Source of the DNA: Anaerolineaceae bacterium
Lineage (GTDB): Bacteria > Chloroflexota > Anaerolineae > Anaerolineales > Villigracilaceae
Length of the DNA: 44,173 nucleotides
Assembly: GCA_009885525.1 (NCBI GenBank)
Contig: VFKN01000033.1
Span: 1-44,173 of the forward strand
Direction: 5' to 3'
Shown here: positions 9,832 through 12,188 of the stretch, one piece after another
How the letters are laid out: each line of letters starts with the position of its first letter
Numbering within the stretch: position 1 is the stretch's first letter
Position numbers and translations under genes: made by a program
Notes under the pieces: model-generated
Databases searched by the model: none
The model's input: only the letters and a program-made list of their open reading frames with translations
Told to the model about the DNA's origin: nothing

Positions 9832-11571
9832 TTGATCCAAAAAAATGAAGTTTTATTGAAGCATAACAACGAGTGGCTTTATTTCACAAACCCGCACCAT
9901 ATTATAAGCGCAGCAAAGGTGGAAGATGTACGCGGCGCGTTGCAGGCAGTGGAGAATCTCGTCAACGAAAAAAACTGGCACGCGGCAGGATTTGTCAGCT
10001 ATGAAGCCGCGCCTGCATTTGACAAGGCGCTGCGCGTCATTGAGGCAGAGAATTTTCCGCTGTTATGGTTTGGGTTGTATTCCGCGCCAAAGACCTCCGA
10101 GGTTTTTAAAAACCTCGGAGGTCTGCCGACATTAACCTGGCAGCCAGGCGTTGAGCGTGATGTGTACAACGCCGCAATTGAAAAAGTAAAAGAAAATATC
10201 GCGCTGGGAAAAACATATCAGGTCAATTACACCATGCGTTTGAATTCGGCATTTGAGATGGAGGCATGGGATTTATTCACTCACCTCGCGCAAGGCCAAA
10301 ACAAATATGCGGCATATCTCGACACAGGTCAATATGCAATCTGCTCCGCGTCGCCTGAATTATTTTTTTCATTGGACGGGGAAACAATCACAAGCCGCCC
10401 GATGAAGGGCACAGTCAAGCGCGGACGCACGACGCTGGAAGATAAAGAAAAAGCGGAATGGCTGCATCGCTCGATCAAAAACCGCGCCGAGAATGTGATG
10501 ATCGTGGATATGGTTCGCAACGATATTGGGCGCATCGCCGAGATCGGCAGCGTGCACGTACCTGAATTGTTTACCGTTGAAAAATATCCCACGCTTTTCC
10601 AAATGACATCCAGCGTGCAGGCGAAGACAAAAACCGGTATCACAGAAATATTCGACGCGCTGTTTCCGTGCGCATCCATTACGGGCGCGCCAAAAGTCAG
10701 CACCATGAAGATCATCGCAGAGTTGGAAACGACGCCGCGCAAAATTTACACGGGCAGTATCGGATACATCGCACCGAATCGTCAGGCGCAATTTAATGTG
10801 GCCATTCGCACCGCGATCATTGACCGGGAAAATAAAACCGCCGAATACGGAGTTGGCGGCGGCATCGTCTGGGACTCGACCAGCGCGGATGAATACAGCG
10901 AAGCCCTGCTCAAAGCGCGTGTGCTGACAGAATTTCCGCAAGAGTTTTCACTAATCGAAACTTTATTATGGACTACCAAAGATAAATATTTTCTGCGCGA
11001 GAAACACATTGCCCGAATGCAGGATTCCGCTGATTATTTTAATTTTCCATTTTCAAGGGAAAGATTTGAAACTCACCTCGAACAGCTGGCAAAAGATTTT
11101 AATTGCCCGCAAAGAGTGAGAGTTACGCTGGATAAATTTGGTGAGTTCAAAGCGCAAGTGACAGTCTACTCACAAGTGACTATCACCTCGTTAAAAGTTT
11201 GCCTTGCAGAAAAACCAGTCAACTCAAATAATGTATTTCTCTTTCACAAAACCACACAGCGCGGAATGTATCCATCCATCCAAGGCTATGATGATGTGCT
11301 TTTGTATAACGAAAATGACGAAATAACCGAATTCACTATTGGAAATGTGGTTGTTGAAATGGATGGCGCATTGTTTACTCCGCCCGTTTCATGCGGACTT
11401 TTGGCAGGCACATTCAGATCGCATTTATTGGAAACAGGCCAAATCAAAGAACGCATTATTTATAAAAACGAACTGGAACAATGCACAAAAATATTTTTGA
11501 TCAACTCGGTGCGAAAATGGGTGGATGTAAAGTTAAATACTTACCTTACGCACCCAAGCGTGATTCCCTGA
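9832..11571 (+). CDS. pabB: Aminodeoxychorismate synthase component I fused to 4-amino-4-deoxychorismate lyase (PabB-PabC)
   Basis: Chorismate-binding motifs CSASPELFF, SRPMKGTVKRG, SVQAK, PCASITGAPKVSTMKII, Y.GSIGY; C-terminal aminotransferase class IV region TEFTIGNVVVEMDG..PPVSCGLLAGTFR; TTG start. Confidence 0.9.
   Translation: MIQKNEVLLKHNNEWLYFTNPHHIISAAKVEDVRGALQAVENLVNEKNWHAAGFVSYEAAPAFDKALRVIEAENFPLLWFGLYSAPKTSEVFKNLGGLPTLTWQPGVERDVYNAAIEKVKENIALGKTYQVNYTMRLNSAFEMEAWDLFTHLAQGQNKYAAYLDTGQYAICSASPELFFSLDGETITSRPMKGTVKRGRTTLEDKEKAEWLHRSIKNRAENVMIVDMVRNDIGRIAEIGSVHVPELFTVEKYPTLFQMTSSVQAKTKTGITEIFDALFPCASITGAPKVSTMKIIAELETTPRKIYTGSIGYIAPNRQAQFNVAIRTAIIDRENKTAEYGVGGGIVWDSTSADEYSEALLKARVLTEFPQEFSLIETLLWTTKDKYFLREKHIARMQDSADYFNFPFSRERFETHLEQLAKDFNCPQRVRVTLDKFGEFKAQVTVYSQVTITSLKVCLAEKPVNSNNVFLFHKTTQRGMYPSIQGYDDVLLYNENDEITEFTIGNVVVEMDGALFTPPVSCGLLAGTFRSHLLETGQIKERIIYKNELEQCTKIFLINSVRKWVDVKLNTYLTHPSVIP
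10091..10124. repeat. Perfect 34-bp palindrome inside the pabB coding region
   Basis: AGACCTCCGAGGTTTTTAAAAACCTCGGAGGTCT equals its own reverse complement; encodes KTSEVFKNLGGL in-frame. Confidence 0.95.
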
Positions 11572-11642
11572 GCGTTAGCGAAGGGTCTCTGAGATAAACG
11601 TAGAGACTCTTCGCTCCGCTCAGAGCGACACTGCGTAAGGTG
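11540..11642. mobile_element. MITE-like element with TIRs and 9-bp target site duplication AGTTAAATA
   Basis: Direct repeats at 11531-11539 and 11643-11651; inverted ACTTACCTTACGCA (11539-11552) / TGCGTAAGGTGAGT (11632-11645), 1 mismatch. Confidence 0.85.
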
Positions 11643-11655
11643 AGTTAAATAAATA

Positions 11656-11681
11656 GCCGCCGCTTGATCTCAAGCGGCGGC
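11656..11681 (-). terminator. Strong hairpin between convergent genes
   Basis: GCCGCCGCTTGA-TC-TCAAGCGGCGGC; on the minus strand followed by TATTTATTT. Confidence 0.65.
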
Positions 11682-11696
11682 AGGAAAAATTTAGCG

Positions 11697-12188
11697 TTAG
11701 ATGTCAGCCAGTGTGATGGAAATATTGATGGTGCCGTCACCCAAATCCACACCTTGAACTGTAATGGCTTTGCCACTCTTATGACCATCAAAGACCATAC
11801 TAAATGTAGTGCCTGCGGTAAATGTCAATTCGGTACGTTCGGTGTAGCCGAGTTTTCCAAACTGGTCACGGTAAAACTTCATGCCTTCATCGAGACTCAA
11901 TTTGGTTTGAAAATTAACAATATCATTGCCCATACTGACCACATTCGCCGCATCATCAGGCAAGGGGAAATCGGTCTTGTCACCGAAGGTGAAGCTGCCA
12001 TCATCAGTTGCCACAGCGGGCATTGTAGGCAGGTCAGTTGCGACAGGCGGCACGGTGGGAATACCACTGCTATCGTCCGATGGAATTAAAGTGGGCGCGC
12101 CGTTATTTCCGCCGCCCATCACTGCCTGACAGGCAAGTGAAGCAAATGCAAGGGCAAGAATCGCAAACAAAATATTATATTTTTTCAT
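11697..12188 (-). CDS. Hypothetical lipoprotein
   Basis: Signal peptide with lipobox FASLACQ; low-complexity linker; globular C-terminal half. Confidence 0.7.
   Translation of the reverse strand: MKKYNILFAILALAFASLACQAVMGGGNNGAPTLIPSDDSSGIPTVPPVATDLPTMPAVATDDGSFTFGDKTDFPLPDDAANVVSMGNDIVNFQTKLSLDEGMKFYRDQFGKLGYTERTELTFTAGTTFSMVFDGHKSGKAITVQGVDLGDGTINISITLADI

Follow-up and report, generated by a model that had tools for sequence, protein, structure and literature searches.

The window (the whole 44,173-nt stretch analysed, contig VFKN01000033.1 of Anaerolineaceae bacterium assembly GCA_009885525.1) carries a folate-pathway gene, the pabB-pabC fusion (pabBC), whose reading frame runs into a short inverted-repeat element of the MITE type and which converges on a lipoprotein-like gene (Table 1). 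In PabBC, the chorismate-binding domain occupies residues 109-361 and the class IV aminotransferase domain residues 374-567. The 107-bp element contains no transposase ORF, and an Rfam search with it returned nothing but a chance-level miRNA match. The genome (G000) is represented by 4.1 Mb in 206 contigs (89% complete) and has the appearance of a metagenome assembly, which makes the junctions described here dependent on the assembler.

Table 1. Features at the 3' end of pabBC, in window coordinates.
Feature	Position	Strand	Basis or remark
pabB-pabC fusion ORF	9832..11571	+	579 aa; final 10 residues and stop MITE-encoded; Pfam PF00425, PF01063; NCBIfam pabB
Left target-site duplication TAAAT	11534..11538	+	Flanks of aligned copies
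107-bp MITE, foldback hairpin over full length	11539..11645	+	MFE -59.5 kcal/mol, z -9.5
Left terminal inverted repeat ACTTACCTTACGCA	11539..11552	+	Aligned copies
Element-derived tail TYLTHPSVIP and new stop TGA (11569-11571)	11539..11571	+	ORF, orthologue comparison
Right terminal inverted repeat (ACTCACCTTACGCA on - strand)	11632..11645	-	Aligned copies
Right target-site duplication TAAAT	11646..11650	+	Flanks of aligned copies
Displaced ancestral pabBC stop TAG	11654..11656	+	Restored sequence
Terminator-like hairpin of convergent gene	11656..11681	-	Syntenic relatives also have a hairpin directly after the stop
Convergent lipoprotein-like gene	11697..12188	-	Adjacency to pabBC kept in 10 relatives

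Positions 11531-11651 read AGTTAAATA, CTTACCTTACGCA...TGCGTAAGGTG, AGTTAAATA, as given in a first-pass annotation of the window, which interpreted them as a 103-bp element with inverted termini between 9-bp direct repeats. The repeats and inverted termini stand, but the copy family and its target-site duplications (TSDs) revise the lengths to 107 bp and 5 bp. Across 43 copies in the own genome, terminal bases 1 (the A1 of ACTYACC) to 14 are almost fully conserved, with a drop to background level at the fifteenth; the ends are therefore set at 11539 and 11645. The 14-bp terminal inverted repeats (ACTYACCTTACGCA/TGCGTAAGGTGAGT), conserved in these 43 copies, are 13/14 in this one, and the 9-bp repeat AGTTAAATA resolves into the 5-bp TSD TAAAT plus AGT and A, which are common to the element ends and the target. 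When the element and one TAAAT are removed in silico, the gene ends in ...RKWVDVKLNK-stop, with a hairpin like that of the relatives immediately after it. As 103 + 9 and 107 + 5 both equal 112 bp, the net removal is identical under either set of boundaries, and the ending VDVKLNK-stop that had been proposed on excision is retained, as are the reading frame and the assignment of TYLTHPSVIP to the element (the present protein ends in VDVKLNTYLTHPSVIP). The statement that the element replaced the stop codon is better expressed as insertion one codon before the stop, with a new stop supplied by the element.

PabBC orthologues from 15 same-genus genomes (approximately 61-73% identity) end about 2-20 residues past RKWVxV, with unrelated tails. 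A tail shared by orthologues had been named as evidence against an insertion; TYLTHPSVIP is absent from all 15, and their ends fall near the same point. An empty site is present in two syntenic relatives (L187 and L188), in which pabBC, its stop codon, an immediate G+C-rich hairpin and a convergent lipoprotein-like gene (60% identical) follow in that order. Because all relatives are 73% identical or less, the event is not datable and an identical element-free flank is not shown.

The expectation that further genomic copies would share these ends and differ in their flanking duplications was borne out, with duplications of 5-6 bp rather than 9 bp. Matches in the own genome amount to 52 rows from approximately 40 separate places, some being counted on both strands, and more than 40 elements bounded by these ends are intact; exact matches to the 14-mer ACTCACCTTACGCA number 67 in 4.1 Mb, against none for its reversed control. 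The closest sibling copies are up to 96% similar. Approximately 20 aligned copies, relatives included, are exactly 107 bp in length, and the element region has matches in 25 of the 41 genomes searched (the own genome counted), with many of them in genomes of the same genus. Exact TSDs flank 27 of the 43 intact own-genome copies (5 bp in 21, 6 bp in six, 7 bp or more in none), whereas re-pairing the two flanks at random across copies yields a mean of 1.9 and a maximum of 9. The preferred target is T-TAWTA-A, given also as TTANTAA. Plasmid sequences gave no match to the 107-bp body, viral contigs held no element bearing both exact ends, and the end sequences were not found in the literature searched.

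Six of the 27 copies with a duplication overlap or abut the stop of an ORF 100 aa or longer (these ORFs are not proper gene calls), where the target preference alone predicts 1.45. That several insertions lie at stop codons is partly due to the TTANTAA target, and the excess can be explained by selection against intragenic insertions. In these cases the duplication keeps a stop and the protein stays as it was; of the copies lying near a stop, the window copy and L073 (G000:C145:11279-11385) are the only two that alter a C-terminus. In L073, which has an unrelated interior, the end of a 375-aa ORF changes from ENWKELINELE to ENWKELINSPYAV (ELE-stop to SPYAV-stop).

A search with the NCBIfam model NF049921 (transpos_IS701_2) located a partner IS in relatives: it is approximately 1.1 kb in length and encodes a DDE transposase of this family, and its 14-bp ends and 5-6-bp duplications are the same as those of the MITE. 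The transposase of one such IS, L301, matches this curated model at 358 bits (cut-off 250) and scores 80 bits against NF033540 (transpos_IS701), below the cut-off of 150. IS701 proper has 4-bp target duplications in ISfinder, as opposed to 5 or 6 bp in the five IS examined from the subgroup found here (L160, L300, L302, L305 and L311). L160, from the same-genus genome G019 (C100, 1461-2564; 74 copies of the exact end in the genome), is a 1104-bp IS in which both ends are exact and the TSD is GATTTA; its transposase is without the VDDS segment that holds the relatives' conserved aspartates and is probably dead. The IS in G019, where these ends are most numerous, may thus be inactive. A 1115-bp IS with exact ends in another genome (L301, G286) retains the DDS motif and looks intact. 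L300, from the same genus, encodes a transposase 91% identical to that of L160, with two mismatches in each end and the TSD TATTA, while L302, L305 and L311 are related IS with ends like ACTGATGTTACGCA or ACTCATGTTACGCA and 6-bp duplications. A MITE directly adjoins an IS end at two loci (L179 and L309), with TAATA common to both. In the own genome (89% complete), the search turned up no intact IS bounded by these ends, only a fragment (C143, L240) of a related IS whose ends differ. In G027, ends at contig breaks adjoin sequence coding for the N-terminus and C-terminus of the transposase, and contigs C17, C40, C83, C94 and C108 end approximately 127 bp inside a collapsed IS, which is therefore multi-copy there and not readable whole.

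Several other candidates for the partner were rejected. A pair of ends 1836 bp apart in the own genome (C93) encloses a histidine-kinase-like gene and no transposase, and an ISAzo13 transposase near an end on C134 has no matching left end. IS1634, the first candidate tested, has a TSD of 5-6 bp, and no IS of this kind with these ends was found. The ends of an IS4_2-type (NF033591) IS (GATTACCTTACACA) match the MITE at 10/14 positions, less exactly than those of the IS701_2-type; its copies (L100 662-1902 in G000:C97 and L094 223-1465 in G002:C65) encode a transposase that is only remotely related despite the likeness of the ends.

Element, TSD, empty site, sibling copies and IS are each seen in the sequence, and we consider it very probable that PabBC received its new tail when a MITE, moved in trans, inserted through a 5-bp staggered cut. 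The cut would have fallen at AGT-TAAAT-AAA, directly ahead of the last pabBC codon, with duplication of TAAAT. The element would be a non-autonomous MITE mobilised by an NF049921 (IS701_2)-type DDE transposase, which appears to require the 14-bp ends only. The reading frame would then run into the element and meet TGA after ten codons, K-stop being lost and TYLTHPSVIP-stop gained. As neither the PabB nor the PabC domain is affected, the insertion, and with it the C-terminal change, is probably neutral. An addition to this account, not an alternative to it, would be co-option, with selection for an effect of the new tail or of the hairpin on how PabBC functions or is expressed: the frame stays open, the element provides a clean stop, and there is a precedent for MITE-derived C-termini (PMC2759123). 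We think such co-option unlikely, as the tail is confined to one genome and the orthologue tails are short and variable, from which the end of PabBC looks unconstrained.

Beyond the 14-bp ends, MITE and IS have nothing evident in common. Exact ends at MITE spacing delimit 56 stretches in the GTDB collection, with titles from Anaerolineales, Thermoflexales (Chloroflexota being among the phyla), Thiomargarita, Ignavibacteria, Bacteroidetes, Armatimonadetes and Chlamydiae; these titles name metagenome bins, some of which may be misnamed or misbinned. TSDs of 5 or 6 bp flank 41 of the 56, and the interiors, which vary between taxa, fold more than 3 standard deviations better than shuffles in 46 (a few form no hairpin). 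Among 30 own-genome loci examined that contain the inner hairpin CCCTGAGCG..AGCGAAGGGTCTC, it has ACTCACC ends at 18, one recognisable end at two and no recognisable ends at ten; three further copies (L046, L055 and L058) have ACTGATG ends and duplications. The same hairpin is thus found bare or under differing ends, and the same ends on unrelated interiors, so ends and interior behave as exchangeable parts; the transposase may capture host palindromes. One hybrid MITE (L343, G000:C151) has one ACTCACC-type and one ACTGATG-type end with a TAATA duplication, which suggests that two IS subgroups recognise each other's ends or have exchanged ends. Members of the inner hairpin family at L317, L319 and L333 (G000:C50, C56 and C130) are flanked in a third way (GTTTAATAAC ... 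GAGTTATTAA) and may represent another mobile type. A 783-bp element between exact 14-bp ends (L113 217-999, G003:C174) carries a passenger 115-aa membrane-protein-like ORF.

The ten loci at which the inner hairpin is without transposon ends, together with the single long fold of the window copy (z -9.5), are what would be expected if the hairpin were a resident, immobile regulatory structure of the pabBC 3' end (a terminator, mRNA 3'-end stabiliser or REP-like palindrome). This reading is highly improbable: orthologous loci have empty sites with an ordinary hairpin directly after the stop, and the window element has a TSD and copies at unrelated loci. Arrival from another dispersed copy through recombination or gene conversion, for which closely similar sequences (up to 96%) do exist, deserves almost no credence, as the copies have unrelated flanks, the TSD is perfect and the flanks listed contain no donor homology beyond it.

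Transposition of the MITE can be placed in a wider scenario, possible but held tentatively, in which one type of transposase needing only a 14-bp end has capped host palindromes and so made MITEs with unrelated interiors independently in several phyla, its TTANTAA target favouring mostly harmless landings on stop codons that repeatedly edit or brush C-termini. A family with identical 14-bp ends on unrelated hairpins across distant phyla, the hairpin occurring bare or under two IS end types, is a natural series in which to ask how bacterial MITEs arise and what a transposase minimally requires.

TIMEs are non-autonomous elements of the Tn3 family that have little beyond their ends in common with the autonomous transposon; this is also true of the MITE described here, but the ends of TIMEs are much longer than its 14 bp, and the transposase of its partner IS is a DDE enzyme with IS4/IS701 relatives. 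The name denotes Tn3-derived inverted-repeat miniature elements (PMC4133298). That small repeats can replace a stop and extend a C-terminus is already known, and the end-sharing family is the more interesting result. In Erwinia carotovora, the MITE-like repeat RU-1 at the 3' end of the amidase gene ECA3499 removed the normal stop and extended the C-terminus past the conserved domain (Delihas 2007, PMC2759123). The two cases are alike in the short MITE-like repeat at a gene 3' end, the loss of the normal stop and the C-terminal extension; RU-1 belongs to another element family and its extension is longer (approximately 34 residues). Rickettsia palindromic elements (RPEs) are likewise small mobile palindromes that add peptide sequence to proteins (PMC10969869), but they lie inside ORFs and are translated through in frame, whereas the window element lies at a stop codon and terminates translation. 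What the window case adds to RU-1 is the ends, the TSD, the empty site and the partner IS; with these and the sibling copies all identified, it shows cleanly how a mobile element has changed the C-terminus of a conserved enzyme.
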